Shown here: positions 16,464 through 35,003 of the stretch, one piece after another
Numbering within the stretch: position 1 is the first letter of the stretch
Layout: each line of letters opens with the position of its first letter
Source of the DNA: Roseburia sp.
GTDB lineage: Bacteria > Bacillota > Clostridia > Lachnospirales > Lachnospiraceae
DNA: 37,572 nt
Direction: 5' to 3'
Assembly (NCBI GenBank): GCA_022771695.1
Contig: JALEKJ010000067.1
Location: forward strand, 1 to 37,572
Translations under genes and position numbers: made by a program
Notes under the pieces: generated by a model
The model's database searches: none
The model's input: only the letters and a program-made list of their open reading frames with translations
What the model was told of the DNA's origin: nothing

Positions 16464-16517
16464 GGTAACGTTTGGGAGCTATGGCAACAATAAATTATGA
16501 CAGGAAGAGCAGAAAAT

Positions 16518-17285
16518 ATGAGATTTGTAACAGGATTTTGTTCCGAAACCGGTATAGCAAAAAAAATAAATCAGGATAGTCTGTGTATAAAACAAGCCCA
16601 GACACCGGAGGGGGAAATCGTGATGGCGGTTATATGTGACGGAATGGGAGGACTGTCAAAAGGCGAGCTTGCAAGTGCAACAGTAATACGAGGGTTTTCA
16701 GATTGGTTTGTCACAGAATTACCTGCAATCGTAAGAAGGTGTGAACTTGAATCCATTCCGGAGCAGTGGACACGGTTGGTAGAAGAACAGAATCAGAAGC
16801 TGTGGGAGTATGGAAGAGCAAATCGTGTTGAACTTGGGACAACGCTCACAGCAATGATAATTTTTGAACAAGGGAAATACTTTATTGCACAAGTGGGAGA
16901 TACACGAGCCTATGAACTTGGCATTCATATTGCGCAATTGACGGAAGACCAATCTTATGTGGCGAGAGAGGTTAAGCGGGGGAATATGACACCTGAACAG
17001 GCACGCATAGATTCAAAAAGAAACGTATTATTGCAATGTATAGGAGCTTCTGCACATGTAATGCCAGAAATCACGCAGGGAACTGCAAGAACTGGCAACT
17101 CTTACTTATTGTGTTCGGATGGGTTTCGACACGAGCTTAGAGAGGAAGAGATGTTGAGGGCAGTCAACGCAGGGGATATTTCAGACAGCACAGCGATTAC
17201 ACATCTGTTGACCGAAATGGTTCATCTCAATGAAGAACGTGGTGAAAAGGACAACATTTCAGCACTTCTTGTACATATCAAATAA
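16518..17285 (+). CDS. PP2C-family Ser/Thr protein phosphatase
   Basis: The 255-residue cytoplasmic metal-dependent phosphatase has the motifs in order: NQDS (D20), a metal-binding CDGMGG (D41), a G-T-T block in RVELGTTLTAMII, VGDTRAYEL, an LLCSDGFRHEL block and EKDNISALLVHI (D245). All PP2C metal ligands are present, so it should be active. An in-frame ATG lies at 16497, but AGGAAGAG 8 bases before 16518 decides the start. It is the first gene of the operon, 27 bases before the kinase gene, so the two probably form an antagonistic pair acting on threonines of the secretion apparatus. No PP2C is found in the canonical Staphylococcus or Bacillus ESX loci. Confidence 0.95.
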   Translation: MRFVTGFCSETGIAKKINQDSLCIKQAQTPEGEIVMAVICDGMGGLSKGELASATVIRGFSDWFVTELPAIVRRCELESIPEQWTRLVEEQNQKLWEYGRANRVELGTTLTAMIIFEQGKYFIAQVGDTRAYELGIHIAQLTEDQSYVAREVKRGNMTPEQARIDSKRNVLLQCIGASAHVMPEITQGTARTGNSYLLCSDGFRHELREEEMLRAVNAGDISDSTAITHLLTEMVHLNEERGEKDNISALLVHIK

Positions 17286-17312
17286 TAAATTATATCCAGT
17301 GGAGAAATAAAA

Positions 17313-18995
17313 GTGGCAACGATTGGAACATTGATTGAAGGAAAGTACGAGATTCTTAAGATGATTGGTAAGGGTGGCATGTCGGAGGTCTACCTTGCCA
17401 TGGACAAGAATCTTAATAAGCAGTGGGCAGTAAAGGAAATTCAGAAAAAAGCATGGGACAAGAATAATCAGGTCGTGGTACAAAGTGCTTTGGCGGAAGC
17501 TAACATGATGAAAAAGCTGGATCATCCGTGTTTGCCGCGAATTGTAGACATTATTGAGAAGGATGATGTTATCTATGTAATCATGGATTATATAGAAGGA
17601 GAACCGTTAAGTAAAGTATTGGAAAAGGAAGGTGCGCAGGATCAGGAAATAGTGATCGGTTGGGCAGAGGACCTTTGTGGGGTATTGGATTATCTGCATG
17701 CACAGGATCCGCCGATTATCTATCGGGATATGAAACCTGCCAATATCATGCTGCAACCCAATGGCAATATCAAATTGATTGATTTTGGTATTGCCAGAGA
17801 ATACAAAGAGCAGAATCTGGAGGATACGGTAAGTCTCGGTACAAAGGGGTATGCAGCGCCGGAGCAGTTTGGCGGAAGAGGGCAGACAGACCAGAGGACA
17901 GATATTTATTGTCTGGGAGTTACGTTGTATCACCTGGTGACGGGTAAGAATCCCTGTGAGCCGCCATACGAGATTTATCCAATTCGTTATTGGGACCCAA
18001 AACTCTCGGCAGGTCTTGAAAGTATCATATTGAAATGTACACAGTTAAATCCGGAAGACAGATTCCAATCCTGTGCGGAACTGCTATATGCCATTTACCA
18101 CTATGAAGAGGCAGATGATACCTATCGCAATAAGCAGAAAAAGAAGGTAAATATTTTTGTAGGTGTGGCAACCATAGCATTACTTTGTTTTGTAGTGGGA
18201 ATTGCTGGACTGCTGCTCAAAGGAAATGCCCAGAATAACGATTATGAAAATAATATGCTTCAAGCAGCGGCGGCATCCAATAATGAAGAGAAAATTGATT
18301 ATTACCTTAAGGCAATTGATATCAAACCGACCCAGACAGCAGCGTATTTGGAACTAATAGAGGCATTTAAGGATGACGCAGCATTTTCTATTGAGGAAGA
18401 AGCAGAGCTTAAAAAGAAGATTAACCTGAATCTTGCAGGTTTGCAGCAAGAGGACAATTATGCAAATCTGGCTTACGAGATTGGAAAATTATACTGGTAT
18501 TATTACGATTATGGAAATACAGGGAGCACGGACAACCAGATTACCAGAATGAAAAGTGCAGTTCAGTGGTTTGACGATGCTTATACATATGGAAGCGAGG
18601 AAAGTGATTACTATGTCATTACACAGGTATATCGTGAGATTGGACAGTTCAACCGTGATGTGACATTAAAGGTTGAGGAGGCTGAAGATAAGGGAACTTA
18701 TGCGCCTTACTTTGAGAGCCTTAAGCATATGTATCAGATTGTTTCGGAAGAGGAGAATGAAATCGTCAATCTTGAGACATATAAACTTTGCATGTACTCT
18801 ATAGAGAATTATGCGCGAAAGTTTATGTTGGATGAGATTCCACAGGAAGACTTGACGGAGTTCTATCAGAATGTACGTGATTCTGTGGCAAAAATGGAGC
18901 CGACGACGGAAAAGACAGAGAACATGAAGAATGAAATCGTAGAGCGGGAGTCATACGCGAAACAGGCAATCGAGCATGCATATGAAGCGCAGTAG
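17313..18995 (+). CDS. Transmembrane Hanks-type Ser/Thr protein kinase
   Basis: The 560-residue protein starts with GTG, preceded by GGAG. The N-terminal kinase domain (about residues 8-265) has the glycine loop IGKGGMSEVY (18-27), the catalytic lysine K41 in AVKEI, the catalytic loop YRDMKPAN (D139), DFG at 157-159 and the activation segment end GTKGYAAPEQFGG. A single membrane segment (about 281-302) leads to an outer region of about 255 helical residues that looks TPR-like, rather than PASTA repeats. All catalytic residues are intact. It probably phosphorylates T-x-x-L motifs in the next gene's product and in the FHA protein at 24634, and itself. The outer domain may sense secretion or the envelope. 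Confidence 0.95.
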   Translation: MATIGTLIEGKYEILKMIGKGGMSEVYLAMDKNLNKQWAVKEIQKKAWDKNNQVVVQSALAEANMMKKLDHPCLPRIVDIIEKDDVIYVIMDYIEGEPLSKVLEKEGAQDQEIVIGWAEDLCGVLDYLHAQDPPIIYRDMKPANIMLQPNGNIKLIDFGIAREYKEQNLEDTVSLGTKGYAAPEQFGGRGQTDQRTDIYCLGVTLYHLVTGKNPCEPPYEIYPIRYWDPKLSAGLESIILKCTQLNPEDRFQSCAELLYAIYHYEEADDTYRNKQKKKVNIFVGVATIALLCFVVGIAGLLLKGNAQNNDYENNMLQAAAASNNEEKIDYYLKAIDIKPTQTAAYLELIEAFKDDAAFSIEEEAELKKKINLNLAGLQQEDNYANLAYEIGKLYWYYYDYGNTGSTDNQITRMKSAVQWFDDAYTYGSEESDYYVITQVYREIGQFNRDVTLKVEEAEDKGTYAPYFESLKHMYQIVSEEENEIVNLETYKLCMYSIENYARKFMLDEIPQEDLTEFYQNVRDSVAKMEPTTEKTENMKNEIVERESYAKQAIEHAYEAQ

Positions 18996-19007
18996 GAGGA
19001 AATGTAA

Positions 19008-19658
19008 GTGAGTGCAGAAGTATATCAGATGATATCAATGGTGGCGTTTGGCTGTGGCGGAATTCTTACATTGATAGCAATTATATTGTTCATTAAATTT
19101 GATGTTCCATCTTTGATAGGCGAGCTTAGCGGAAGAACAGCGGAGAAGAAGGTTCAGGAAATCCGCGAACAGAACCGACAGGCAGTGTCAATGAGACAGC
19201 GAGGATCGGAACGGCGACGTAAGGTGCCAGCATATGCGACGGACACGAAAGACGCGATAGGCGGCAATGAGACAGCAAGTAAGACAGCGGAAGAGAAGAA
19301 GGCTGGAGGCGTGACAGCGGTGGCAGAAAGCAAAACGCAGATAAGAAAGCCGATACAGTCGGACGAGGCAACCACAGCATTAGATGAGGCAACCACAGCA
19401 TTAGACGAGGCAACCGCAGTATTAGACGAGGCAACTGCAGTATTAGATGAAGCAACCGCCGTTTTGGGGAATGAGGGAACTACTTTGTTGAATGAAGGCG
19501 ATAATGAAAGCTTTCAGGCAGAACCGCAAACCACGCTTCTAAGCGAAAAAATGGCAGAAGAACAGACGACGATATTAAGCGAAGCAACTGTATGGGGAGA
19601 TGCTGATTTTAGCATGGTACAGGATGTAGTAGAAGTGCATACCGATGAAACAATATAA
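19008..19658 (+). CDS. Small membrane protein with repeated TxxL phosphoacceptor-like motifs
   Basis: The 216-residue protein starts at GTG with GGAGGA 7 bases upstream. One membrane helix lies near the N-terminus (about residues 5-27, with FGCGGILTLIAIILFI), followed by a basic cytoplasmic stretch and a Thr-rich acidic tail. Residues 119-153 are five exact 7-residue repeats of the form DEAT(T/A)(A/V)L. Further copies are EGTTLLNEG, PQTTLLSEK and EQTTILSEA. FHA domains bind phosphothreonine with selectivity for the +3 residue, and here that residue is regularly Leu. Its place between the kinase and the FHA proteins suggests a multi-site phosphorylated scaffold. I know no named family. The role is inference. 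Confidence 0.8.
   Translation: MSAEVYQMISMVAFGCGGILTLIAIILFIKFDVPSLIGELSGRTAEKKVQEIREQNRQAVSMRQRGSERRRKVPAYATDTKDAIGGNETASKTAEEKKAGGVTAVAESKTQIRKPIQSDEATTALDEATTALDEATAVLDEATAVLDEATAVLGNEGTTLLNEGDNESFQAEPQTTLLSEKMAEEQTTILSEATVWGDADFSMVQDVVEVHTDETI
19362..19466 (+). repeat. Five tandem 21-bp coding repeats (DEATxxL)
   Basis: There are five head-to-tail units of GA(C/T)GA(G/A)GCAAC..., each encoding D-E-A-T-(T/A)-(A/V)-L. The first four are nearly identical in DNA, so copy number could change by slippage or recombination. Confidence 0.92.
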
Positions 19659-19693
19659 GATTTATTTCGGAGTAAAAGAGGAGAATATCAAAA

Positions 19694-22600
19694 ATGAAAA
19701 AGACGGGATTTATAAGAAGAATGCTGGCATTGCTGGCAGCATTCATTGTATGCTTTGCATCAATGCCGATTGTTCCGATTGAGGCTGCCGGAACAGAGAA
19801 CGCTGAATTACAGAAGAATGCGGCAGAGGATGATGGCGCAGACGATGACGGTGATGGCACAGACGATGACGGTGATGGCGCAGACGATGACGGTGCGGGC
19901 AACGCAGACGATGATGCAGAAAGCGACGATGAAGGTGATGACGAGACGACAGAGTATGCATTAGATGTTATTTATGATGCAATGTCAGGAAGCATCGTGG
20001 TTAGAGAATTGTCTTCCGAAGCAGAGACAGAAGTGACAGGAACAGATACAGAAAGCGGCAAGAATTATGTTATGGAAGCCGGAAAAAAATATGAAATTGA
20101 GATAACAGCAGAAACGGGATATGAAATTGACACGATTGATGTAAATGAGACGAATCAGTTTGATGTTTATTTGGAGCAGTATACATATACGATTGAGTCT
20201 GCGGCAGAGGAGATTGCACTTAGTGTGTCATTTAAAGTCGCAACAAATATGATTCGGGTTAACATGAATACAGAACAGGGGGATGCCACAGTGACAGAGT
20301 GTTCTTCCGGTAATGAAGTAACTGCGGACATGGATGAGCAGGGAAATCTTTGCTATACCGTAGTGAGAGGAAGTAGTTATGAAATTAAGGTCTGCGCGAA
20401 AGAAGGTTATGAACTTGTATCTGTGCCGGAAGGTTTTGTAAAAGCAGAAGATGAAGAATGTTGTACATATACAATAAATCCGGTGGCAGGAGACAGTGAA
20501 TATAATTTGTCCTTTCAGGAAATTTTAAATCCAATCGCTGTAGAAGCAGAAGGAAACGGAACTGTTATTTATACTGCCGAAAACGGTGAAGAAAAAGAGT
20601 TTATTTGTGAAGATGCGAGCGCTTATATACAGGGAACACAGGACATCGTATACGGAAAAGATGCAGTATTCACATTGCTTCCGGACAATGGATACTATGT
20701 ATCCGAGGTAAAGATTAATGGTAGTGATATCAAGATAGATGATGCACAGGTCACATTAAATGAAGATGGCAGTAGTGTCTATACATTTGCACGCGTGACA
20801 AGTGAGCAGAGTATCAGCGTGGTATTTTCTAAGATTGAAAAGCAGCAATTATCGATACAAGAGGATGAGACTGCGGATGAAATGCTTGCACGCGGTAACA
20901 TAGAATTTTTATTTAGTAAGGAAACGGATAGAAATAATGTGCAGCAGGGAGAGGGTGAAAGCACCTATATACTGACGCATCATCAGAAGGTGACCGTTCA
21001 GGTAAAAGAAGACGAGACAAGTGGATATGAGATATTGGATCATAATGTATTTGTGACAGCTTATGATATTACAAGCAGTGCAGATGGGATTATGAATCAA
21101 TATGTGCTCAGAAGAACCAAAGGAGCATGGGAAGGCAGTGTTGTCCGTTACTGCACCGGATATGAGTGGAATTTTGTAATTGACAATACAGCACCGGAAG
21201 TTTCCGTCAGTGGAGATTCGTTTGTCTGGGTAAGCGGTAAAGAGTCGGATGTTGTAATTGCAGGAAAGGTATCAGATGATTGTACCGGTATTAAGAAAAT
21301 AGTATGGTTTACAACACAAAAAAATGTTACATCGGAAGAAGAGGAGATTGTTGCAGAAACAACGAATGTAGCAGAGGTACAGAACGGTGCATACACGATT
21401 ACAATCGGTACGGCGCCAACTGCAGATACGAATTACTACATTTATGCGGTGGATGAGGCATGCAATATCGCAGAAACACAGGTCGAGTATCATGTGGATA
21501 CAAAAGGACCGGAAGTAACAGTTGAATTGGAGAAGACAACAAAATGGTGGCAGAGAGTCTTTTTCAATAAAGAGGAAATTACAGTTATCTTGACTGCGGA
21601 TGATGCGGATGGTTCCGGTGTGGATACCGTAACCCTCTTTGTGAATGGGGAAGAATATTGTACCGAGAAATATCGCGAAAATGGGAAAAACATTTTTGTT
21701 GTGACATTGAAGAAGGGAAGAGAACATACTTTTACGGCAATCGCGACCGATAAGGTTGGCAATAAGACGGGAGAACCGGAATGCGGCGGTACGGTATATT
21801 ATGACAATGACTTACCGATAATGAAGTTTACTGCAGGAGACGGCGCCTATGAAAAAAATGAGATAATTTATAGCGCCGCTGACATTGTAATGCAGCTTCA
21901 GGTAGAAGACAAAGATTCCGGTCTTGCAAAAGTAGAAATTGAGATAAAAGGCCAGCCCATTACTGCGGATGCAAACGGGAAAGCCATTGATATAGATTAC
22001 ACAAGCTTTGATACGCAGACCTTCCGTGATGAATTCGTGCTGAATACGGCATTGGGACAGCCGGATGTAAATGGAAAGTATGTGATTACGGTTAGAGTGT
22101 ATGACGTTGCGGAAAATGAAGCAGTACAGTACTTTACCGTATACAAAGATGAGACGGCACCGGAGATTACCGGATTACAGGTAACAGGAGCAAATGCAGC
22201 CGGTGAGGAGATTGTGGCAGAGGGAAGCGGCACAGTTGGTACAACATCTTCTGAAATCTATGGTTATTATGCTGCAAATCAGCTACTGATTGATGCGTCA
22301 ATGACGGATGGAGTTTATGGCTCCGGCGTTGAGACTCTCAGCTATATCTTAAAGAATGCAGATGGTACGGTTAGAAAATCCGAGACTGTAGTATTAAACG
22401 GAAAAGAGACCATGGCTATTACGATTCCTGCAGATTTCAAGGGAAGTATCTATGTAAAAGCGAAGGATTATGTTGGAAATGAGATGTCTGATTATGCGAC
22501 AGTGGATGATATGATTGCGGAGTCGCAAGAGCAGTTTGATAATACGGCAGGTATAGTAATGACAGCGCCGGGTACAACTTCAAAGGATATCGATGGAAAT

Positions 22601-24622
22601 AATCTTTATGCAGGGAACATCACAATTCCTGTTGTGGTGACAGACACTTACGCGGGTATTCGTTCGATTGAGTGGAGTATAAGGGCACCGCAGGATAGCA
22701 ATGCAAATCAGAGTGGCACGATTGTGGTTGACAATGCAGGAAACAGTTCCGAGAATAATTGGCGTGTAACAAGTTTTGACCGGAACCTTGCGACCTGCGT
22801 AGAGGGAGCAATTATAATAAACGCAAATAGCAATGCAATCGTTGTAGATGTGAAGATGACAAATCGCGCAGGGTACGTCACGACACAGAGTATGACAGTA
22901 AGTATTGATAAGACAACACCGGTGGTTGAAATCAGTTTTGACAACGAACAGGGAGATGCTACTTATACAGAATATTTCGCAGAGAGCCGTACTGCTGCGA
23001 TTACGGTGAAAGAGCGTAACTTTGATGAGGCAGGCGTAAGCCTGGATATTTCCAACACAGAAGGAAACATTCCGGCTCTTTCAGGATGGACCGCTACAGG
23101 CTCCGCAGATGAGACGGTATATACGGCAGAACTTGTATTTGATGCAGATGGAGATTATGCCGTATCCATGCAGTTCACGGACATGGCAGGGAATAAAGCA
23201 ACAACCTTTGATACACAGGAGTTTACAATCGATAAGACAATGCCGGAGATTGAGGTAAGCTTTGACAATGAGCAAAGTATAAACGGAAATTACTTTGCGG
23301 CAGAGAGAACGGCAACCGTCCGCGTCACAGAGCATAATTTTGACGCAGACAGAATCGAGATTGTAGGTACGGCAACAGATAACGGAAATGCAATTACATT
23401 TCCGGTTACTAGCCATTGGAGTGATGAGGGAGATGAGCACACAGCAACCATCACGTTTGAACGTGACGGACAATATTCCTTTGAAGTTACCGGGGGAGAT
23501 ATGGCAGGAAATGAAGCTGATATGGTTGAGGTAGAAGAATACTACATCGATTTGACAGACCCGGTGATTGAAATCCTTGGTGTGGAGGATATGTCTGCCA
23601 ACAACGGTTCCGTACAGCCGACCGTACAGATTATAGATACGAACTATAGTCAGAGCGATGTGGAAATTCAGCTTGTGGGTGCAAACCGTGGAACTGTCAT
23701 ACCGGAGGGGACATTTGTTGCTTCCGAGAATGGTCAGACATTTCGGTTTAGTGATTTTGCAAAAGAGCAGGAAGTGGATGATATTTATACACTGACAGCC
23801 ACAGAGACAGATATGGCAGGCAATACAGTGACAGAGAGTATTACTTTCTCAGTAAACCGCTTTGGGTCTGTGTACACTTTAGATAGCGGATTAGAGGAGA
23901 TTACCGGAAGCTATATCAAAAAAGCAGTGGATATTGTTCTGACGGAAACAAATGTGGATGCGTTAGATGAGAATTCTATTGAGGTAGTACTCAGTGCCAA
24001 CGGAACACCGCACACTTTGGAGAAGGGTACCGATTACACACTTACCAAATCCGGTGGCAATGGCTCTTGGAATCAGTATGAGTATAATTTGCATAAAGAA
24101 AACTTTGCAGGAGATGGAACTTACAAGGTCACAATCTATTCTGTGGATGCAGCCGGCAATATTAATGAGACAGTGAATGAAGAGAAAAAAGCAGAGATTG
24201 AATTTGGTGTAGACGGAACTGCGCCGGTAATCGTGCCATTGAACATTGAGGATGGTGGAAATTATGATACAGAGGAATTGACGGCAAGTTTCTCCGTACA
24301 GGATAATCTGGTTCTTGACAATGTAAAGATTACATTAAACGGTGAGCCGATTGAGTGCCAAAATCAGGGAGATACCTATGAGTTCGTGATACCGGAAGCC
24401 TCTAAGCGTCAGTCTGTTGTCGTCTTAGCGCAGGATGCAGCCGGAAACGCGCTGGCATGCGAAGTGACGGAGCTTTTGGTATCAACCAATGGATTTGTGC
24501 GTTGGTACAACAATAAGCCACTGTTTGCAGGTACACTGGCAGGTACAGGTGTGGTAGCCGGCGGAGCAGGAGCATTTTGGGGACTCCGCAGAAAGAATTA
24601 TATTAGAATTAAGCGTAAATAA
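19694..24622 (+). CDS. Large Ig-like repeat surface protein of the secretion locus
   Basis: The 1642-residue protein has an N-terminal signal or anchor (about residues 1-33, MLALLAAFIVCFASM), an Asp/Gly-rich low-complexity region (about 45-85), and two or three small beta domains with the G-Y-E-(I/L) signature of InlB-B-like repeats (about 90-390). At least eight Ig-like beta-sandwich units follow, marked by repeated D-x-T-x-P-x-(V/I) and D-x-A-G-N edges. The C-terminus is a Gly-rich membrane helix (TLAGTGVVAGGAGAFWG) and a basic tail (LRRKNYIRIKRK). There is no LPxTG motif. It is thus held in the membrane with a long outer arm, a topology like EsaA/YueB of canonical systems, though the sequence is unrelated as far as I can see. 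It sits inside the operon, between the kinase and FHA genes. Confidence 0.88.
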   Translation: MKKTGFIRRMLALLAAFIVCFASMPIVPIEAAGTENAELQKNAAEDDGADDDGDGTDDDGDGADDDGAGNADDDAESDDEGDDETTEYALDVIYDAMSGSIVVRELSSEAETEVTGTDTESGKNYVMEAGKKYEIEITAETGYEIDTIDVNETNQFDVYLEQYTYTIESAAEEIALSVSFKVATNMIRVNMNTEQGDATVTECSSGNEVTADMDEQGNLCYTVVRGSSYEIKVCAKEGYELVSVPEGFVKAEDEECCTYTINPVAGDSEYNLSFQEILNPIAVEAEGNGTVIYTAENGEEKEFICEDASAYIQGTQDIVYGKDAVFTLLPDNGYYVSEVKINGSDIKIDDAQVTLNEDGSSVYTFARVTSEQSISVVFSKIEKQQLSIQEDETADEMLARGNIEFLFSKETDRNNVQQGEGESTYILTHHQKVTVQVKEDETSGYEILDHNVFVTAYDITSSADGIMNQYVLRRTKGAWEGSVVRYCTGYEWNFVIDNTAPEVSVSGDSFVWVSGKESDVVIAGKVSDDCTGIKKIVWFTTQKNVTSEEEEIVAETTNVAEVQNGAYTITIGTAPTADTNYYIYAVDEACNIAETQVEYHVDTKGPEVTVELEKTTKWWQRVFFNKEEITVILTADDADGSGVDTVTLFVNGEEYCTEKYRENGKNIFVVTLKKGREHTFTAIATDKVGNKTGEPECGGTVYYDNDLPIMKFTAGDGAYEKNEIIYSAADIVMQLQVEDKDSGLAKVEIEIKGQPITADANGKAIDIDYTSFDTQTFRDEFVLNTALGQPDVNGKYVITVRVYDVAENEAVQYFTVYKDETAPEITGLQVTGANAAGEEIVAEGSGTVGTTSSEIYGYYAANQLLIDASMTDGVYGSGVETLSYILKNADGTVRKSETVVLNGKETMAITIPADFKGSIYVKAKDYVGNEMSDYATVDDMIAESQEQFDNTAGIVMTAPGTTSKDIDGNNLYAGNITIPVVVTDTYAGIRSIEWSIRAPQDSNANQSGTIVVDNAGNSSENNWRVTSFDRNLATCVEGAIIINANSNAIVVDVKMTNRAGYVTTQSMTVSIDKTTPVVEISFDNEQGDATYTEYFAESRTAAITVKERNFDEAGVSLDISNTEGNIPALSGWTATGSADETVYTAELVFDADGDYAVSMQFTDMAGNKATTFDTQEFTIDKTMPEIEVSFDNEQSINGNYFAAERTATVRVTEHNFDADRIEIVGTATDNGNAITFPVTSHWSDEGDEHTATITFERDGQYSFEVTGGDMAGNEADMVEVEEYYIDLTDPVIEILGVEDMSANNGSVQPTVQIIDTNYSQSDVEIQLVGANRGTVIPEGTFVASENGQTFRFSDFAKEQEVDDIYTLTATETDMAGNTVTESITFSVNRFGSVYTLDSGLEEITGSYIKKAVDIVLTETNVDALDENSIEVVLSANGTPHTLEKGTDYTLTKSGGNGSWNQYEYNLHKENFAGDGTYKVTIYSVDAAGNINETVNEEKKAEIEFGVDGTAPVIVPLNIEDGGNYDTEELTASFSVQDNLVLDNVKITLNGEPIECQNQGDTYEFVIPEASKRQSVVVLAQDAAGNALACEVTELLVSTNGFVRWYNNKPLFAGTLAGTGVVAGGAGAFWGLRRKNYIRIKRK
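19841..19903 (+). repeat. 21-bp repeats encoding an Asp/Gly-rich segment
   Basis: Units of GACGATGACGGTGATGGC plus one codon (19841-19861, 19862-19882, then a diverged third) encode D-D-D-G-D-G-(T/A). The D-x-D-G pattern could bind calcium. Confidence 0.8.
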
Positions 24623-24633
24623 GGTAGAGGAAA

Positions 24634-25674
24634 GTGTCAAAGTATAAAGTAGCATCAAATAAAAGTCTGATAAAAATTATAAGAAAATTTTGGGGAAAGG
24701 TTCCTGTAAATGAGCGGGAGTTTAAGGTTTTTGAGGAAAACCTGCTCCCGGGATTTTTCCGCCCACAGATGGATGGGAAGCATAAAATTGTCTATACGGC
24801 ACCGATTAGCATTCCGCTTCGGGCATATATGGAGAAGGGCTTGACGATTCACAAGCTGTACAACGTATTGGCACAGGTGGTAGAGGTTACCAAGAAGATT
24901 GATATGTATGGCTTTTATCTCAATAACCTTGTGTTGGACGAACAGCTTATCTATGTCAAAGAAATAACAGGAGAACTCTACTTTTTGTATGAGCCGTTGG
25001 AGGGCAGAGACAATAGCACAAATGTCTATGCATTTTTGAGTGATATGCTTGCGAAGTTCAAATCGGATGACCGAGAGGTTATGGAGGAATGCAAGCGGAT
25101 ATGTACATTTTTGAATGATGTGGGGAATTACCGTACCGAGCAGTTAGAGACATTTATTATGGATGTCTATCCGCAGATTTACCAGCAGGTGACACGTGCA
25201 GAAAAGGGAATGAGCGGTTTCATTACGAGCAGCCGCCTTTCCTATCGTCAGCACTATGGAACTGAGCAGACAACAAGTAGGGACGAAGGCGGAACTGTGC
25301 TCCTGAAAGGAGAGGAAGGCGGCACCGTGTTGCTACAGGAGGAAGGAACAGTATTATTGCAGCAGCCAAGAAGCATTGCACAGCTACATAGAAAGCGCAC
25401 CGGCGAGAAAATTGAAATACGAGGCGGCGAGTTCCGTATCGGAAAAGATGTCACAGCGGATTATTCTATCCGTGACAATAAAGCAATCAGCAGACACCAT
25501 GCGGTTATCTGTTGCAATGGCAACGAGTATTTGCTACGGGATGAGAATTCGACGAATCATACATATCTGAATGGAAGGATGTTGGAACCGGGACGAGTGG
25601 AAGTGTTAAGTGAGGGAGATGTAATCCGGCTGGCGGATGAGGAGTTTTCGTTTGCAATAGAGCTGACAGAATAG
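24634..25674 (+). CDS. DUF6382-like protein with C-terminal FHA domain
   Basis: The 346-residue cytoplasmic protein starts at GTG, 11 bases after the surface-protein gene. The N-terminal domain (about residues 1-195) resembles the DUF6382 domain of clostridial FHA proteins, with GFYLNNLVLDEQLIYVKE followed by FLYEPLEG. The linker (about 209-246) holds three copies of a (G/E)TVLL motif. The FHA domain (about 255-346) has the phosphothreonine-binding elements R268-I-G-K, ISRHHAVI and S-T-N-H-T-Y-L-N-G. The linker threonines may be targets of the locus kinase. It could replace EssB, whose pseudokinase-like domain is missing here, but that is speculation. The DUF name is from recall. Confidence 0.85.
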   Translation: MSKYKVASNKSLIKIIRKFWGKVPVNEREFKVFEENLLPGFFRPQMDGKHKIVYTAPISIPLRAYMEKGLTIHKLYNVLAQVVEVTKKIDMYGFYLNNLVLDEQLIYVKEITGELYFLYEPLEGRDNSTNVYAFLSDMLAKFKSDDREVMEECKRICTFLNDVGNYRTEQLETFIMDVYPQIYQQVTRAEKGMSGFITSSRLSYRQHYGTEQTTSRDEGGTVLLKGEEGGTVLLQEEGTVLLQQPRSIAQLHRKRTGEKIEIRGGEFRIGKDVTADYSIRDNKAISRHHAVICCNGNEYLLRDENSTNHTYLNGRMLEPGRVEVLSEGDVIRLADEEFSFAIELTE

Positions 25675-25684
25675 GAGAAGAGCG

Positions 25685-26656
25685 ATGAGCGAAGAAATAT
25701 TTGCCGGACAGGTAACGGAAGTAAAAAATAGTGTTCATGCAGAGTATCTGCTTAACAGCAATGATACTTTTTATGATATTGGATTTCGTGTGATGAAGAA
25801 TCAGCAAAGCGGATGTCTATTACCTTGTCATAGGTTGAAATATAATGGCAGGATTAAACTTGTGTATTTTACAGATGGCTTGGTGCCTCTGGAACAGAAG
25901 TTAGCAGAGATGGACGTAGAAAAGATGCGTATTCTTCTCTCAAATTTGTTTGAGGCGATAGAAGAAGTAGAAAGCAACGGTTTTTTGAATACGAGCTGCA
26001 TTGAACTTCGATTAGAGAAAATTTATGTGGACAATCGGACATTTGCCATCAAGCTTATCTACTTACCGATTAATCAATCGCTTGGAAATGGAAACAATTG
26101 TGATATTGAGAGTGAGATGCGGGCAAAGCTTATCAAAGCGATGCGGGATATCCGGCTGGCAGACCATCCTCGCGTGCAGAGTGTTGTAGATGTCTTAATG
26201 GACGGAACATTGGATATTGACGGGGTAGTAAGAAGCCTCCGGGATGGAATACAGATGAGTGCACCTGCAGAAACATATGTGTCTGCGACAAAGGAATCAA
26301 GAGAAGAAATTACACCTGCGGTAAGTGTACATGCGTCAAAAATGTTATATGAAGAGCCGGCATCGGCACTTACATTGAGGGCAGTAGACGGTTCCGTGAC
26401 ATTTGTGATTGACAGACCGGAATATATATTGGGGAAAAACAGCGAGAGAGTCGATGGAGTAATTACAGGCAATCCGGCAATCAGCCGGGTTCATTGCAAG
26501 ATATCACGTGAAGGCGGGGCATTCTATATTACCGATATGGGAAGCTCGAATGGTACGTTTTTGGATGGAAAGCGACTGGCACCATCAGAACGGGCGAAAA
26601 TCAGGCAGGATAGCCGTATAAAAATTGCTAATATGGAATTTATGATATGGAGATAA
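25685..26656 (+). CDS. Second FHA-domain protein
   Basis: The 323-residue cytoplasmic protein is built like its upstream neighbour: an N-terminal alpha/beta domain of about 190 residues (LPCHRLKYNGRIKLVYFTDGL and RLEKIYVDNRTFAIKLIYLP correspond to blocks in the first protein), a variable linker, and a C-terminal FHA domain (about 235-323) with the elements Y-I-L-G-K, ISRVHCKI and a canonical MGSSNGTFLDGK. The pair look like old paralogues. The linker lacks TxxL motifs, so this one may only read phosphothreonine. AGGAG precedes the ATG. It lies 4 bases upstream of the MinD-like gene. Confidence 0.9.
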   Translation: MSEEIFAGQVTEVKNSVHAEYLLNSNDTFYDIGFRVMKNQQSGCLLPCHRLKYNGRIKLVYFTDGLVPLEQKLAEMDVEKMRILLSNLFEAIEEVESNGFLNTSCIELRLEKIYVDNRTFAIKLIYLPINQSLGNGNNCDIESEMRAKLIKAMRDIRLADHPRVQSVVDVLMDGTLDIDGVVRSLRDGIQMSAPAETYVSATKESREEITPAVSVHASKMLYEEPASALTLRAVDGSVTFVIDRPEYILGKNSERVDGVITGNPAISRVHCKISREGGAFYITDMGSSNGTFLDGKRLAPSERAKIRQDSRIKIANMEFMIWR

Positions 26657-26660
26657 GAGG

Positions 26661-27713
26661 ATGAGCAGACTATTAGTGGTAATTGCGGACGAGGATGAGA
26701 AATATCTATCGACATTAGAATACAAGTTTTTACAAGAATTGGATGATAAGATTGACTTGGAAATCATATCGGACAAAACATATTTTGAGAGCTTTTTTTC
26801 TTCACCAAAGACAGCAGAGATTGTTGCAGTGTGCGAGTCTTTCTATTCCCGAGAACTGCAAAGACATAACATTAACAACCTTTTTGTAATGACGGAAAAC
26901 AAAGGGGATGGGGATACTGCAGAATTGGCAGTCAATCAGATTTATAAATATACGGGAATCAAAGAAATATACAATGAAATGATATACCGCAGCCGCGATA
27001 AGATCGAAGATGATGACGCGGCAGAGAAAGAGACAAAGATTATAGCCATGCATTCGGCAATCGGGGGTTCCGGAAAGACCGTGTTGGGGATGGCATTGGC
27101 GGACAGCCTCGAGCAGAATCATCGCAAGGTGCTCTATATCAATGCGGAATCCATACAGGAATTTGGGTATTATCTGAAGGATAAGAGCGGAATGACAAAC
27201 GAGGCGATTCGCTCATTGAAGAACGACTTAAATCACATCTATACGAATGTACGTCCTTTCATTCGCAAGGAAGGCTTCTCTTATCTGCCGCCGTTCCAAG
27301 TGACGCTGGATGCACTCAATCTCGAGGAATCAGTTTATGAAAATCTCGTGCGCACTGCAAAGGAAAGCAAAGAATACGATTTTATTATTGTAGATATTGA
27401 GGCAGGCTACAGCAGAGAGAAGATGGGTTTGTTGCAGCAGGCGGATCGGGCACTGGTAATATTGTTGCAGGATGAACTATCCGTAAATAAGACGGAGTAT
27501 CTTCTGCGCAACATTGATGTACGCGACCGGGAAAAATATCTGTTCGTATGCAACAAATATGATGAGACGGGATTCAATGCCTGCATGGGTGCGGATGCAC
27601 AGACCCGTTTTACGGTAAATGAGTATGTCGAACTGATGAAAGAACCAATCAAAGAAACACGCCAGTTTTCAAAATTGCAAGGAATTCAGAAACTGGCATA
27701 TATGTTTATATAG
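26661..27713 (+). CDS. MinD/CpaE-like P-loop ATPase with receiver-like N-terminus
   Basis: The 350-residue cytoplasmic protein has an N-terminal domain (about residues 1-115) with the alternating pattern of a degenerate receiver domain (LLVVIADEDEKYLSTLEYKF), as in CpaE. The C-terminal part is a SIMIBI-class ATPase: P-loop SAIGGSGKT (K139, T140) and a Walker B-like FIIVDIEAGYSREKM. The signature lysine of the deviant ParA/MinD P-loop (K-G-G-x-G-K) is replaced by I134. CpaE-type ATPases place pili and secretion machines, and mycobacterial ESX loci also carry a MinD-like protein (EspI). It may position or energise the secretion complex. The genes on either side are 4 and 11 bases away. Confidence 0.88.
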   Translation: MSRLLVVIADEDEKYLSTLEYKFLQELDDKIDLEIISDKTYFESFFSSPKTAEIVAVCESFYSRELQRHNINNLFVMTENKGDGDTAELAVNQIYKYTGIKEIYNEMIYRSRDKIEDDDAAEKETKIIAMHSAIGGSGKTVLGMALADSLEQNHRKVLYINAESIQEFGYYLKDKSGMTNEAIRSLKNDLNHIYTNVRPFIRKEGFSYLPPFQVTLDALNLEESVYENLVRTAKESKEYDFIIVDIEAGYSREKMGLLQQADRALVILLQDELSVNKTEYLLRNIDVRDREKYLFVCNKYDETGFNACMGADAQTRFTVNEYVELMKEPIKETRQFSKLQGIQKLAYMFI

Positions 27714-27724
27714 AGGGCAGAGGT

Positions 27725-27979
27725 ATGGGCGATAAGGTAGTTGTTGAATTTAATAATTGCGTAGATATGAGTAAACAAGAAATAGAAATTCCGCTGGATA
27801 TAACTGCCCAGGAACTTGCTATGGCATTGAACAGTGCATTTTCGCTGGGGATGAATGTGGAGGATCCTTTTGCGTGTTATTTGGTAGCTGAAAATCCAAT
27901 TGCTTTCTTAAGAGGAAATAAGACGCTAAGGGGATTTGGCATTCGCAATGGTTCACAGATTATATATAAGAGGGATTAG
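27725..27979 (+). CDS. esaB: YukD/EsaB ubiquitin-like protein of type VII secretion
   Basis: The 84-residue protein has the beta-grasp pattern of EsaB/YukD: VVVEFNNCVDMSKQEIEIPLDITAQEL, a helix with LAMALNSAF, and the ending LRGFGIRNGSQIIYKRD. The length equals the family norm of about 80. In Staphylococcus and Bacillus it is a small cytoplasmic component needed for secretion. It sits 2 bases upstream of essC, the usual arrangement. Confidence 0.9.
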   Translation: MGDKVVVEFNNCVDMSKQEIEIPLDITAQELAMALNSAFSLGMNVEDPFACYLVAENPIAFLRGNKTLRGFGIRNGSQIIYKRD

Positions 27980-27981
27980 GT

Positions 27982-30900
27982 ATGGAGTATCAATACAAAA
28001 TAATAATCAGCAATAGGTCCGTTTATAAAGAAATCGAAATTCCGGTAGAGGTGGAGCAAATTAAGATAGGAACAACTTCGGCATGCGAGGCACGCCTTAA
28101 TCCGGATTTGTTTTTTGACAGCATAGAGATTGAGGTAGAAAAAACGAATAATCAATGGCAGTTATTATGCTCTGATACCGTGTACATTAGTAAAGGCGAT
28201 ATGCGTAAGTTATTGTCTTGTGAACTACAACACGGAGATGTATTAATGCTTCGTTATGCGGAATCGGGAGATTTGGTTTTTGAATTACGTTTCATGATAG
28301 ATTTTGAAGCCAAAACACCATTCTATAACTGGAAAATTGATCTTTCTGATAGAAATGATATTGTCATCGGAGATACATCTAATTGCGATATTATTATTAG
28401 CAGTCAGTTTAGTGGAAATAATAAGCTTAGATTGGTTAGAAGTGACGATGGGTTTGACTTAGAAGAAATGCAATCTGAGTTTGGAGTCTATGTCAATGGA
28501 AAGCAGATTGAGAATATTGCGAAATTAAAAAATCATGATTTCTTTTCGGTAGCAAATTTCTTTTTTTACTATAAAAAAAATCAGTTGTATTTCGATATCG
28601 AAGGAATATCTGCTCCGGAGGAAACGATTATTGAAATTGAACCGCAGGGAAGTTTTCAGTATCCGCTTTTTGTGCGGAATACAAGAATAAGAGGAAAAGT
28701 TGATGAGACACCTATTAAGGTGCTGGAGCCTGCCTCTAAACCGACGAAACCGGAGTTGAATATTGTGACATCACTTATGCCGACGCTGGTAATGTTCGTA
28801 TTAGTGGTAGTAATGCGTGGCATTATGAACACATCTGCGGGTTCGTATGTATTATTCACCATATGTTCTATGGGAATGGGAGTTGTGACGTCTGTACTGA
28901 GTATTATTAATACGCAGAAAAAATATAAAAGGGAGTGTGCTCAGAGAGAATCGCAGTACTTGAGCTACATTGAAAAAAAGAAAGAAGAAATCTCATGCGC
29001 CAGACAACATGAGCTGGACTGCTTAAATGAGACGTATATCAGTACGGAACGTGATATTAATAATATTCTAAAATTTGATGACCGGTTATTTGAACGGTTG
29101 CCGGAAGATGAGGATTTTTTAGACATATATCTGGGAGAAGGAAGAGTCGCAGCGAAAAAACTAATTGATTATAAAGAGCAGGAAAAGCTGGAAATTGGAG
29201 ATGAACTCAGTCAAATCCCTTCCGGAATATATGCAGATTTTAAGTATATTGATCATGCACCTGTGATTATGAAATTAAAAGGTGCCAATGCGGTGGGAAT
29301 TGTGGGAAATTCAGAACAGCGGTATCAGCTATTTAAAAAGATTCTTATTGATATTGTAAGCAGACAATACCATGGTGATGTGAAAATATATGTCCTTTTG
29401 GATGATGACGTTAAACGGTATGATTGGATTAGAGAATTGCCGCATATACAGAACAATGGAAGTGTAAGAAATATTGTTTGCGACAATGAGAGCAAGAATA
29501 ACATTTTTGAATATCTGTATAAAGAACTGACGTATCGCAGTGAGGTAAAGGGTGAGCATGTTTATAATGTCATTCTGGTTATGGATGAGCAAGGCATCAA
29601 GAGCCACCCGATTTCAAAGTTTATTGAGAAAGCAGGCGAACTGAATACGGTCTTTGTATTCTTTGAGGAGAAAGAGGAATACCTGCCTTTATATTGCAGC
29701 AGTATTGCAAAGCTGCAAGAGGGAAACCAAGGTGTATTGTTTGAAAGTATGGATAGAGGGCAATACCAGAGTTTCCAATATAAGGACATTTCAGATGCAG
29801 ATATGTATAGAATTGTTCAGAAGTTAGCACCTGTATATTGCGAAGAGATAAGTCTTGAGAGTTCACTTAGAAAAAATATCTCGCTATTTGAATTGTTAGG
29901 TATTTATTCAGTGGATGATTTGGATTTGGGAAGCAGATGGGATTCTGCACAGATATATAATACGATGGCTGTGCCGCTGGGTGTGAACGTAAAAGATGAC
30001 ATTGTTTATCTGAATCTCCATGAGAAAGCGCACGGACCACATGGATTGGTTGCAGGTACTACGGGTTCCGGTAAAAGTGAAATTTTACAGACATACATTT
30101 TATCTGCAGCGACGCTGTTTCATCCGTATGAAATTGGATTTGTAATTATTGACTTTAAAGGTGGTGGCATGGTAAATCAGTTCAAGGATTTGCCGCACCT
30201 CATAGGAGCGATTACAAATATTGATGGAAAAGAGATTGATCGTTCATTAAAATCCATTAAGGCAGAGCTGTTAAAGCGGCAGACGCTTTTTGCAGAGGCA
30301 GGTGTAAATCATATTGATAAATACATAAAGGCATTCAAAGAAGGTAAGGTAAAAGTTGCACTACCTCATTTGGTTATCATTGTAGATGAGTTTGCCGAGT
30401 TAAAGGCAGAACAGCCGGAATTTATGAAAGAGTTGATTAGTGCAGCCAGAATTGGACGAAGCCTTGGTGTTCATCTGATTTTGGCAACACAAAAACCTGC
30501 CGGTCAGGTCAACGAACAGATATGGAGCAATTCAAAGTTCAAATTATGTCTGAAGGTGCAGACGCAGGAAGATAGTAACGAGGTATTGAAGTCACCGTTG
30601 GCGGCAGAGATTCGTGAACCTGGACGAGCATATCTTCAGGTTGGAAACAATGAAATCTTTGAACTTTTTCAATCGGGATATTCAGGAAGTCCGGAGAAGA
30701 GCGATGATGGAAATTTGAAAGATATTACACTTTATAGTTTGGATTTTACAGGAAAACGCAAAGAAATTTTTAAGCAGAAAGCGAAAAAAGAGACTAGCGC
30801 AAGAACGCAGTTGGAAGCAGTTGTTGATTGTGTGAATCAGTATTGTAAAGACAAGAATATTAAGAAACTGCAGCAGATATGTCTTCCTTCGCTCGAAAAG

Positions 30901-32502
30901 GAAATTATTTTTGATTCTGAGAAATATGCAGGTGCAAAGAATGTTGAGATGACCTGTGCAATCGGAATTTATGACGATCCGGATAATCAGTATCAAGGAT
31001 TGGCAAAAATTAATTTGGCATCACAGAATACATTAATTATTGGGTCTTCACAGTATGGAAAAACTAATTTGTTAGAACTGCTCATCCGAAATCTGGCAGA
31101 GACATACACACCGGATGAAGTGAATATGTATATCATCGATTTTGGCTCAATGGTACTTAAGAATTTTGAGAAGCTGAGCCACGTGGGCGGTGTTGTATGT
31201 CCATCTGATGATGAAAAACTAAAGAATTTGTTTAAGTATTTGAACGATCAGATTCAGTATCGCAGGGAAAAGCTGCTGGCAGTTGGAGTGAGTTCGTTTG
31301 CATCATATATGGAAGCGGGCTATAAGGATATACCACAGATTATTGTTCTGATAGATAACCTCACGATGTTGAGAGAATTGTATCTTATGGATAATGATAT
31401 ATTGTTAAATTTGACAAGAGAAGGAAGTTCTGTCGGTATTAACTTTGTGGTTGCCAATGCGCAGACGAATGGCATAGGTTACAAGTATTTGGCAAATTTT
31501 GCGTCAAGAATTGCATTGTTCTGCAATGAAGCAAGTGAATATAATACACTGTTTGGTACATGTAGGTTGAGACCTGATGAAGTTCCAGGTAGAGGTATGA
31601 TTGAAATCGATAAGACAATTTTTGAGTATCAGACTTTTCTTGCATTTCAAGGTGAAAAAGAAATTAATCGTGTTAAGGATATGCAGGGATGTATCGATCG
31701 GATTAATGAAAAGAATGCAGGAATGCATGCAACATTGATTCCGGAGATACCGGAAACACTGACGGATGGATTTATCTTTGAGAAGTTTGGATATCTGATA
31801 CAGACAAAGGATAAAGTTGTTCTTGGTCTTAACTATGCAACAATAATGCCAATCGCTTTAGAGATGCGGAAAAATAATATGCTGGCTGTTTCGGGACGTG
31901 AAAACTCAGGAAAAACCAATTTTATCAAATATTTTGTTCGTGCAATCAACGCGTTTGGCACGCAAGCAGAGATTACAATTTTTGACGATTATCGAAAGAA
32001 GCTGCGTGAGTTGCAGGATGAGGAAAACGTTGTTTTATACAGCATTAGTGTAGAGAGTGTCAAGGAGGCATTTGCTGAGTTAGAGGAATGCTTGCAACAA
32101 CGATATGAAGCACTTATCAATGAGCAGCCGGTGGAAACTACGTGGAAAGTTCTCATCATCAACAATGCGGATGTGGTTGACACAATGAGCACAGATAAGG
32201 AAGTGCTAAATGCATTTAAGAATTTGATTGGAAAATATAAGATGTTAAATGCATTTATCTTATTTGGCAGCGTTCCGAATACGCCAATTCCATATGGAGC
32301 GCCGGAAGTGTATAAAATCATCAAGGAAAATAAAAATATTTTATTCTTTGAGGACCTGGATAATTGCAAGATACTGGATATTCCACTCAGTGTGACGCGG
32401 GCGAACAAGAAGAAGCTGGAAGTGGGAGATTGCTACCAATTAATCGGAAATGACTGTTATAAGATTAAAACACCGTTAGCAGTCGTAAGAAACATGAAAT
32501 AA
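27982..32502 (+). CDS. essC: EssC, FtsK/SpoIIIE-type ATPase of type VII secretion
   Basis: The 1506-residue membrane ATPase is the motor of the secretion system. Two FHA-like beta domains lie at the N-terminus (about residues 1-95 and 100-220), then two membrane helices (about 264-310), a coiled region, and three P-loop domains. D1 has GTTGSGKS (K698) and a full Walker B, VIIVDEF (D802, E803). D2 has GSSQYGKT (K1027) with a Walker B ending D1125-N1126. D3 has GRENSGKT (K1311) with N1394-N1395 instead of acidic residues. An intact D1 with weakened D2 and D3 is known for EssC/EccC. The length matches the family. It should bind EsxA at its C-terminal domain. Confidence 0.97.
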   Translation: MEYQYKIIISNRSVYKEIEIPVEVEQIKIGTTSACEARLNPDLFFDSIEIEVEKTNNQWQLLCSDTVYISKGDMRKLLSCELQHGDVLMLRYAESGDLVFELRFMIDFEAKTPFYNWKIDLSDRNDIVIGDTSNCDIIISSQFSGNNKLRLVRSDDGFDLEEMQSEFGVYVNGKQIENIAKLKNHDFFSVANFFFYYKKNQLYFDIEGISAPEETIIEIEPQGSFQYPLFVRNTRIRGKVDETPIKVLEPASKPTKPELNIVTSLMPTLVMFVLVVVMRGIMNTSAGSYVLFTICSMGMGVVTSVLSIINTQKKYKRECAQRESQYLSYIEKKKEEISCARQHELDCLNETYISTERDINNILKFDDRLFERLPEDEDFLDIYLGEGRVAAKKLIDYKEQEKLEIGDELSQIPSGIYADFKYIDHAPVIMKLKGANAVGIVGNSEQRYQLFKKILIDIVSRQYHGDVKIYVLLDDDVKRYDWIRELPHIQNNGSVRNIVCDNESKNNIFEYLYKELTYRSEVKGEHVYNVILVMDEQGIKSHPISKFIEKAGELNTVFVFFEEKEEYLPLYCSSIAKLQEGNQGVLFESMDRGQYQSFQYKDISDADMYRIVQKLAPVYCEEISLESSLRKNISLFELLGIYSVDDLDLGSRWDSAQIYNTMAVPLGVNVKDDIVYLNLHEKAHGPHGLVAGTTGSGKSEILQTYILSAATLFHPYEIGFVIIDFKGGGMVNQFKDLPHLIGAITNIDGKEIDRSLKSIKAELLKRQTLFAEAGVNHIDKYIKAFKEGKVKVALPHLVIIVDEFAELKAEQPEFMKELISAARIGRSLGVHLILATQKPAGQVNEQIWSNSKFKLCLKVQTQEDSNEVLKSPLAAEIREPGRAYLQVGNNEIFELFQSGYSGSPEKSDDGNLKDITLYSLDFTGKRKEIFKQKAKKETSARTQLEAVVDCVNQYCKDKNIKKLQQICLPSLEKEIIFDSEKYAGAKNVEMTCAIGIYDDPDNQYQGLAKINLASQNTLIIGSSQYGKTNLLELLIRNLAETYTPDEVNMYIIDFGSMVLKNFEKLSHVGGVVCPSDDEKLKNLFKYLNDQIQYRREKLLAVGVSSFASYMEAGYKDIPQIIVLIDNLTMLRELYLMDNDILLNLTREGSSVGINFVVANAQTNGIGYKYLANFASRIALFCNEASEYNTLFGTCRLRPDEVPGRGMIEIDKTIFEYQTFLAFQGEKEINRVKDMQGCIDRINEKNAGMHATLIPEIPETLTDGFIFEKFGYLIQTKDKVVLGLNYATIMPIALEMRKNNMLAVSGRENSGKTNFIKYFVRAINAFGTQAEITIFDDYRKKLRELQDEENVVLYSISVESVKEAFAELEECLQQRYEALINEQPVETTWKVLIINNADVVDTMSTDKEVLNAFKNLIGKYKMLNAFILFGSVPNTPIPYGAPEVYKIIKENKNILFFEDLDNCKILDIPLSVTRANKKKLEVGDCYQLIGNDCYKIKTPLAVVRNMK

Positions 32503-32517
32503 TTGCCAATGGCAATT
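32501..32517 (+). promoter_or_regulatory. Hairpin between essC and esxA
   Basis: AATTGCC (32501-32507) pairs perfectly with GGCAATT (32511-32517), starting at the essC stop codon. An AT-rich stretch with a run of six T follows. It may be a leaky terminator or a messenger processing site. Confidence 0.5.
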
Positions 32518-32552
32518 ATATAAATTATTTTTTATTTAAAGGAGGAGCCAAA

Positions 32553-32849
32553 ATGGCAACAGGACAGATCAGAATTACACCAGACGCAATGCGAGGCAGA
32601 GCGTCAGAGTACAGAACAGAGGCTGCAAACGTAGAAGCCGTAATCACAAAAATGGATTCTTTATTGGAGGCTTTGTTAGGTGAGTGGGAAGGTGCTGCAA
32701 GTGAAGCGTACAACGATAAGTTCGCAGAGTTGAGACCTTCTTTTGTTAAAGCGAAAGAGCTGATCGATGATATTGCAACTGCATTAGATCAGACAGCAGC
32801 TGCTGTAGAAGAGACAGACAGCAACATCGCAGGCCAGTTCAGAGGCTAA
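32553..32849 (+). CDS. esxA: WXG100 protein EsxA (secreted type VII substrate)
   Basis: The 98-residue helical hairpin protein has the defining W45-E-G47 turn in GEWEGAASEAYNDKF and a C-terminal helix with V-E-E-T-D-S-N. These are the marks of EsxA-like proteins, which are exported as dimers and act as a core substrate and partner of EssC. There is no signal peptide. AAAGGAGGAG upstream of the ATG is the strongest ribosome binding site of the locus, in line with high expression. It is separated from essC by 50 bases with a hairpin and is followed by a second, strong hairpin. Confidence 0.97.
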   Translation: MATGQIRITPDAMRGRASEYRTEAANVEAVITKMDSLLEALLGEWEGAASEAYNDKFAELRPSFVKAKELIDDIATALDQTAAAVEETDSNIAGQFRG

Positions 32850-34561: not shown

Positions 34562-35003
34562 AGCATTAACGATGAAAAATGTGGTATCCAAGAGATACTT
34601 TACGGACAAGGAGCATATTGAGGAGGCTCAGAAAACTTTTTTGAAAGAATTACTTTCTTTGAAAGGTGCTGTAATCAAGGGACCATTTGTATACATGATT
34701 GAGTATACAACACCGGAAGAAATTCTGGCGATATGGTTTATGACTTCAGTTGGAAATGATGATAGCACGATATTTCATGATTATCGATATGATAGCTATT
34801 TCGGGTTAGAGGAGGCAATTTGCTGTAAAATATATCCGGAGGAGATGCAGAAAGAAGCTGATAACTTGTATGATAAAATGGAAAAAAGATGTTTGCAGGA
34901 TGATGTGAGGATGATTTCGCCGATTTATTTTGTAAAAAATGTGCTTGAAGAAGCTGGATTTTATTCGCTGTATGCAGCCGTAGAAAAAATTCAAACGCGG
35001 TAA
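34545..35003 (+). CDS. DUF5085-like protein, second of a tandem pair
   Basis: The 152-residue soluble protein has the same layout as its upstream neighbour: N-V-V-S near the start, LKGAVIKGPFVYMIEYTTPEE matching the G-x-x-x-x-G-P strand-turn of the first protein, and the C-terminal YFVKNVLEEAGFYSLYAAVEK. The ATG at 34545 is chosen because GGAG lies 9 bases before it; 34551 is possible. It overlaps the upstream gene by 17 bases. The pair may form a heterodimer serving the LXG protein at 36763. That is inference from position. Confidence 0.65.
   Translation: MIMNYEALTMKNVVSKRYFTDKEHIEEAQKTFLKELLSLKGAVIKGPFVYMIEYTTPEEILAIWFMTSVGNDDSTIFHDYRYDSYFGLEEAICCKIYPEEMQKEADNLYDKMEKRCLQDDVRMISPIYFVKNVLEEAGFYSLYAAVEKIQTR

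Follow-up and report, generated by a model that had tools for sequence, protein, structure and literature searches.

The window analysed here is the complete contig JALEKJ010000067.1 (37,572 nucleotides, the contig ending with the window at 37572) of a Roseburia sp. genome (3.28 Mb, 99.99% complete), and it carries an operon for a type VII secretion system (T7SS) in which the genes for EssC, EsaB and EsxA stand together with those for a kinase, a phosphatase and FHA-domain proteins. The operon spans 16497-32849 and consists of ten genes, all on the plus strand, in the order F-D-K-I-J1-J2-V-B-C-A; nine had been counted in the first-pass annotation. The tight spacing of 2-50 bases described there was confirmed across the operon (gaps of 27, 12, 35, 11, 10, 4, 11, 2 and 50 bases, in operon order). 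The first gene may start at the ATG at 16497 or at an in-frame ATG at 16518. The genes are as follows.

16497..17285, plus strand: F, PP2C-type Ser/Thr phosphatase, TscF/TseF/TsjF-like (PF13672, PP2C_2, 42.3 bits; NF033484 159.2 bits, below the cut-off of 230)
17313..18995, plus strand: D, membrane Ser/Thr kinase (PF00069, Pkinase, 172.8 bits) with one helix near residue 277 and a TPR-like outer domain
19008..19658, plus strand: K, one-helix membrane protein with eight TxxL motifs in its cytoplasmic tail, a candidate phosphothreonine array
19694..24622, plus strand: I, secreted Ig-like protein of 1642 residues, TsdI/TseI/TsjI-like (Big_13 52 bits, Big_3_3 44.3 bits; hydrophobic N-terminal stretch)
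24634..25674, plus strand: J1, DUF6382 domain resembling the EssB pseudokinase, TxxL-bearing linker and FHA domain (FHA 61.4 bits, DUF6382 47.4 bits), without a membrane helix
25685..26656, plus strand: J2, DUF6382 domain resembling the EssB pseudokinase and FHA domain (FHA 61.3 bits, DUF6382 45.8 bits), without a membrane helix
26661..27713, plus strand: V, TadZ/MinD-like ATPase, TsfV-like (AAA_31 37.1 bits; top PDB match 3fkq, E 4.6e-10)
27725..27979, plus strand: B, EsaB/YukD-like protein (PF08817, YukD, 23.9 bits, below the cut-off of 27; recurs beside EssC)
27982..32502, plus strand: C, EssC ATPase with two degenerate N-terminal FHA domains (TIGR03928 1119.7 bits, cut-off 778.4)
32553..32849, plus strand: A, EsxA-like WXG100 protein (PF06013 75.9 bits)

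These matches bear out the earlier identification of EssC, EsaB (below the family cut-off) and EsxA. We conclude that the operon is genuine and belongs to a class already described, with D, K and I added within the T7SSf lineage.

The lineage was determined from EssC trees, computed with FastTree for 155 sequences and with IQ-TREE for 52 of these, the best 80 of at least 276 relatives having been kept; the named relatives among the matches listed belong to Lachnospiraceae, Oscillospiraceae, Clostridium and, in one case, Bacillaceae (Rossellomorea aquimaris). The window EssC and its relatives grouped with T7SSf EssC (SH-aLRT, the Shimodaira-Hasegawa-like approximate likelihood ratio test, 100 in IQ-TREE; 0.871 in FastTree), and this clade adjoined T7SSb (91 in IQ-TREE). 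In both trees it was separate from the T7SSj rows and from the T7SSe-like rows, the latter being assigned from gene content and including no named T7SSe reference. The reference T7SSf locus lies in genome G686, which we take to be C. acetobutylicum ATCC 824 and in which three EssC loci have the contents F-J-V-B-C-A (T7SSf), D-J-F-C-B-A (T7SSj) and an EssB locus (T7SSb). This genome (loci L185, L187 and L212) thus has three type VII systems and one window-type kinase, that of the j system.

Eight subtypes, T7SSc-j, were defined by Garrett, Higginson & Palmer 2024 (PMC11217815), and several of them carry a PPM phosphatase, a membrane kinase, an Ig giant, a DUF6382-FHA protein or a TadZ-like ATPase. 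Kinase/phosphatase/FHA subtypes without EssA, EssB and EsaA are in print in that paper, and phospho-regulation was proposed there together with a comparison to the type VI secretion system (T6SS), so the main idea of the first-pass annotation had been published in outline. Its suggestion of a distinct subtype holds in that the system is not canonical T7SSb and its genes form one recurring system, but the class is the one outlined in PMC11217815. Among the papers listed in the literature search, with bioRxiv and supplements outside the search, T7SS terms were found together with DUF6382, TsfV, T7SSf or T7SSj in that paper only; it was also the sole source of 'T7SSe', and 'TxxL' is absent from its main text. 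As far as sequence can tell, the window goes beyond that paper in three respects: a T7SSf-lineage EssC accompanied by a kinase/Ig block, which was reported for T7SSd/e/j (PMC11217815), a TxxL-bearing candidate phospho-acceptor, and an EssB-like domain in the FHA proteins.

Published T7SSf comprises A, B, C, F, J and V, and no kinase was detected for it (PMC11217815). The window shares with it the EssC lineage, these components and the position of V next to B and C; it differs by adding D, K, I and a second J, and its J1 and J2 lack a membrane helix, whereas the reference TsfJ has two. Kinase D is linked to a T7SSf-lineage EssC both in the window (17313-18995) and in locus L192, which stands beside the reference in the tree. 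The components listed for T7SSj, namely A, B, C, D (TPR), F, I, J and K (PMC11217815), give the best fit by gene content, including the TPR-like outer domain of D and a K-type gene. We nevertheless rejected T7SSj as the home of this operon: the window EssC groups with T7SSf in another clade, no V is reported for T7SSj, and the T7SSj EssC keeps the phosphothreonine residues of its FHA2. T7SSe, a first guess from gene content (types D, F, I, J, K, B and C are present, and TseK is described as a single helix plus a short unstructured cytoplasmic stretch; PMC11217815), was set aside, as the EssC trees place the window apart from the rows assigned as T7SSe-like by gene content. TseH and a second WXG100 protein (TseA2) are required according to the paper; neither was found in the window operon, which encodes a single small membrane protein and a single WXG100 protein. 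With T7SSb (S. aureus Ess, B. subtilis Yuk) the window shares an EssC with two FHA domains, EsaB, EsxA and LXG substrates, and its DUF6382 domains resemble the T7SSb EssB pseudokinase; the difference is that the window genome lacks EssA, EssB and EsaA matches above cut-off.

The claim that nothing in the operon looks like EssA, EssB or EsaA stands at the level of family models, which found none of these families among the ten operon proteins up to E 0.1, but not for EssB in profile-profile comparison, by which DUF6382 resembles the pseudokinase. The first-pass annotation had staked its claim on canonical essA, essB and esaA not being encoded elsewhere in the genome. Genome-wide, zero matches to EssA (PF10661) and EssB (PF10140) were obtained, and the EsaA model (TIGR03929, cut-off 122 bits) gave two weak matches, 62 and 57 bits, both on another contig; such matches below cut-off also occurred in 6 of 14 control genomes. 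Thus the claim survived this search. Two adjoining frames of 717-739 residues (L228 and L229; G000:C26) match the EsaA N-terminal model below cut-off. Of 150 genomes from this family, 36 had EssC above its cut-off and 7 had EssB (12 at E 0.001), so that in this sample EssC more often occurs without EssB than with it.

Across 95 loci annotated with hidden Markov models (HMMs) grown from the window proteins, the genes recurred as two blocks, [J-]F-D-K-I and J-V-B-C-A, and the EssB HMM had no match. The EssC clade has 99 members, of which 98 were annotated (L057 was left out), and 40 of them had at least 9 kb of sequence stored on each side of EssC. In these full loci V and J were each present in 35, a kinase gene in 25, the PP2C gene in 14 and EssB in none. 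In six more of the 40 a window-type D lies just beyond the stored stretch, on the same strand in L134, L133, L126, L123 and L170, and about 13 kb away on the opposite strand in L156. Thus the kinase-to-ATPase block, which had been expected to accompany related EssC loci, proved common but not universal. Nine of the 40 then remain: for six of them (L128, L138, L162, L163, L167 and L175; L162 by search match only) a window-type D was found elsewhere in the genome, for L185 the genome has only the T7SSj kinase, and L176 and L130 gave matches confined to the kinase domain. In L221-L224 an intact F-D-K-I block is located away from EssC. Thus T7SSf probably does have a kinase, in a block that may lie elsewhere in the genome; the T7SSf of G686 may use the kinase of T7SSj, and this could explain the co-occurrence of the two subtypes.

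In Rossellomorea aquimaris the kinase is 61% identical to window D over its length and the EssC stands beside a Clostridiaceae EssC in the tree, and the two blocks look like a transfer. The distance between the blocks there, about 270 kb (L167, L223), and their location on different contigs in L221, L222 and L224 are what one would expect if F-D-K-I were a separate envelope-sensing switch on transcription or wall synthesis, merely co-transcribed with the secretion genes. We consider this rather unlikely, given that F-D-K-I is often directly upstream of J-V-B-C-A and that K and J have the TxxL motif in common, which ties the two blocks together.

The TxxL-repeat membrane protein of the earlier annotation is K, and its repeats are well beyond chance: eight TxxL were counted in the window protein against 1.49 expected. 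To collect its homologues, an HMM was grown from the first 62 residues of K, a TxxL-free stretch; it gave 39 matches, reduced to 38 when one tail shorter than 40 residues was dropped and to 33 when copies were removed (L195, L201, L203 and L227 were excluded as copies from the K and FHA counts). The 33 distinct tails contained 183 TxxL versus 37.0 expected, the largest value in 1000 shuffles being 56, and 32 of them had at least two. SxxL (22 versus 21.2 expected), TxxI, TxxV, TxxD and TxxxL were not enriched in these tails. TxL was also enriched in the set of 38 (107 versus 41.5), because position +2 of the motif is often V or L, and the TxxL flanks are acidic. A broader selection, taking the small open reading frame (ORF) that follows each kinase gene (48 of 50 scored), gave 210 TxxL versus 69.6, with little or no excess in the longer TPR-type ORFs. 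Conversely, clusters of at least three TxxL per 100 residues were found in 38 of 4282 ORFs (forward ORFs only), and all of these were K, K-like or J: 25 were K by HMM, 8 were J and 5 were judged to be K (three copies, L166, and L127, which is cut at the locus edge). The J linkers carry the motif as well, with 106 TxxL versus 42.8 expected and at least one in 54 of 103. The motif fits the known preference of FHA domains for the residue at position +3 from the phosphothreonine. A phosphorylated motif of a similar kind is ETTS in the FHA protein GarA, and the excerpts of PMC5448819 on GarA/OdhI describe an FHA protein that, like J1, carries a phosphothreonine motif of its own within a flexible segment; as portrayed in these excerpts it has one motif and no DUF6382 and is a metabolic regulator rather than a secretion adaptor. 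K is thus a candidate phospho-acceptor.

On the reading side, the J FHA domains mostly keep the phosphothreonine-binding residues (SRxH in 73 of 103, N[GHAS][TSV] in 98 of 103), whereas the EssC FHA domains of the clade mostly lack them: the EssC matches in the same loci had SRxH in 0 of 132 and N[GHAS][TSV] in 51 of 132, and both FHA domains of the window EssC are without these residues. Per-clade counts for EssC came from a looser search, in which FHA2 of the window clade had [ST]xxH in 7 of 94 and SRxH in 0 of 94, and FHA1 had them in 8 of 74 and 1 of 74, respectively. By comparison, FHA2 had [ST]xxH in 3 of 3 T7SSj and 12 of 15 T7SSe-like rows, in agreement with PMC11217815; the T7SSb rows, with 4 FHA matches, were too few to use. 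These counts bear on the possibility that the phosphothreonines of K are read directly by the EssC FHA domains, as suggested for T7SSe/j, with J as a side regulator. EssC does have two FHA domains at this place, and the T7SSj and T7SSe-like FHA2 keep the residues, but the binding residues are mostly missing in the window clade; we rejected its EssC FHA domains as phospho-readers and regard direct reading as unlikely here.

The DUF6382 domain of J appears to be remotely homologous to the EssB pseudokinase. With the first profiles (60 versus 9 rows) hhalign gave a probability of 68.2% (E 4.7e-5). Deeper profiles, built from 177 and 74 rows, raised it to 91.3% (E 9.3e-7, score 45.2), with 119 columns aligned in order, and gave 87.7% in the reverse direction. 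All of 8 random half-samples reached 80.7-89.8% in the same register. The controls (F, V, WXG100, B, the FHA part and the EssB outer part) remained at or below 2.1%, TPR and reversed profiles at or below 0.3%, and two further decoy families, one of them K, at or below 0.2%. The likeness could still reflect chance or a general kinase-like fold, in which case J would bring phosphorylated K to another partner; the evidence is of the profile-profile kind, and the D kinase domain weakly touches both DUF6382 (20.6%) and EssB (22.3%). With the ordered and stable alignment and the near-zero controls, we find this improbable.

The membrane kinase itself offers another candidate for the EssB counterpart. 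Its catalytic residues D139, K141, N144 and D157-F158-G159 were invariant in 20 of 20 aligned rows, and D could be the counterpart in place of J if an active kinase had later decayed to the EssB pseudokinase. D and EssB have the same order of kinase-like domain, membrane helix and outer helical domain, as noted for TscD (PMC11217815), and their helix and outer parts matched at 55.7% (hhalign). However, without the membrane helix the match dropped to 0.6%; the D outer domain is TPR-like (97% against a TPR family) and that of EssB is not (about 1%), and the cytoplasmic half of EssB fits DUF6382 better than the D kinase domain (91.3% versus 22.3%). The equation of the two outer domains was rejected, and descent of EssB from D seems very doubtful to us.

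For the EssB family itself, parts of two papers describe the contact that J may have kept. In E. coli the pseudokinase of YukC binds to the FHA region of YukB, from which the authors infer, in the portion of PMC9600267 consulted, that phosphorylation is not needed, and a passage of PMC9436818 states that S. aureus EssC requires FHA2 for its association with EssB. We propose, at what we judge to be even chances, a T7SSf-lineage system of the blocks F-D-K-I and J-V-B-C-A, joined in one operon here, in which phosphorylated K recruits J and J docks on EssC. D would sense the envelope through its TPR-like outer domain and phosphorylate the TxxL threonines on the cytoplasmic tail of K, as well as the similar sites of J1. 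The FHA domains of J1 and J2 would bind the K phosphothreonines, so that J is drawn to the membrane, and the J DUF6382 would dock on the degenerate EssC FHA domains as the EssB/YukC pseudokinase does in T7SSb, without phosphorylation. If DUF6382 keeps the EssB-EssC contact, J would link phosphorylated K to EssC, and EssC would be part of the K-I-D envelope complex only as long as K carries phosphate. The PP2C phosphatase F would reset the switch, V might place the machine, and I could take the wall-spanning role of EsaA; wall spanning was proposed for TsdI (PMC11217815). The scheme resembles the T6SS gating by PpkA/PppA/Fha (as cited in PMC11217815) in using a membrane kinase, a phosphatase and an FHA reader as a switch; it differs in that the secretion core is unrelated and the presumed target is a tandem TxxL membrane tail. 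The sequences establish the genes, the lineage, the recurring blocks, the TxxL excess, the FHA residue patterns, the catalytic residues of the kinase and the remote likeness of DUF6382 to EssB, while phosphorylation, binding, docking, gating and the parts played by V and I are inferences.

Being recruited by phosphorylated K and docking on EssC, J would be a detachable EssB. We tentatively suggest, with somewhat less confidence than for the wiring, that it is the ancestral form, docking on the EssC FHA domains while tethered to the membrane solely by phosphothreonine-FHA binding to the multivalent TxxL tail, and that T7SSb later fixed the pseudokinase permanently to a membrane helix and dispensed with the kinase, the phosphatase and the K tail; the kinase block could work in trans, even for another subtype, as the single window-type kinase of G686 suggests. 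Several observations weigh against the proposed wiring. The kinase gene was found in 25 of the 40 full loci; in 11 of these 25 the kinase has an outer domain like that of window D, and in 14 it does not. The matches in L176 and L130 cover the kinase domain only, and in L108, L111 and L112 the kinase is followed not by K but by a TPR-type membrane protein of 529-539 residues. In addition, 30 of the 103 J FHA domains are without SRxH, and a PDB sequence search with DUF6382 did not retrieve EssB, just interferon beta (E 0.12) and CK2 kinase (E 0.32).

As regards V, its top PDB match 3fkq is presumably TadZ from the gut bacterium E. rectale; this structure, solved as TadZ, could in fact represent the V protein of a type VII system. 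Downstream of the operon lies a likely substrate cluster.

34097..37572, plus strand: two DUF5085 genes, a DUF4176 gene, a YwqH-like gene and an LXG gene

Genes of these types are the usual neighbours of type VII antibacterial substrates. The wider region 33388-37572 also contains a four-helix membrane protein with the substrate genes, and the LXG gene is cut at the contig end, leaving its toxin domain unseen. About 1.1 kb upstream of the operon, 14696-15370 encodes a secreted cell-wall hydrolase (PF07486), which could make room in the wall for the machine or have no connection with it. Further upstream, 2583-14361 is a sugar-use locus with a LacI regulator, an ABC transporter, GH130, GH38, GH20 and ROK genes, resembling sets for host or plant N-glycans. 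A promoter/terminator scan found promoter-like sites at chance level (56 versus a mean of 52.2) and was not used.

The proposed wiring is more specific and testable than what the papers searched contain. It orders genes that had been listed as co-occurring into a scheme open to experiment, suggests what DUF6382 probably is, and points to a possible source of EssB, the central component in Staphylococcus and Bacillus. If it is true, T7SSf would not be kinase-less but would rely on a block possibly located elsewhere in the genome, and toxin export in many gut Clostridia would be under fast post-translational control.

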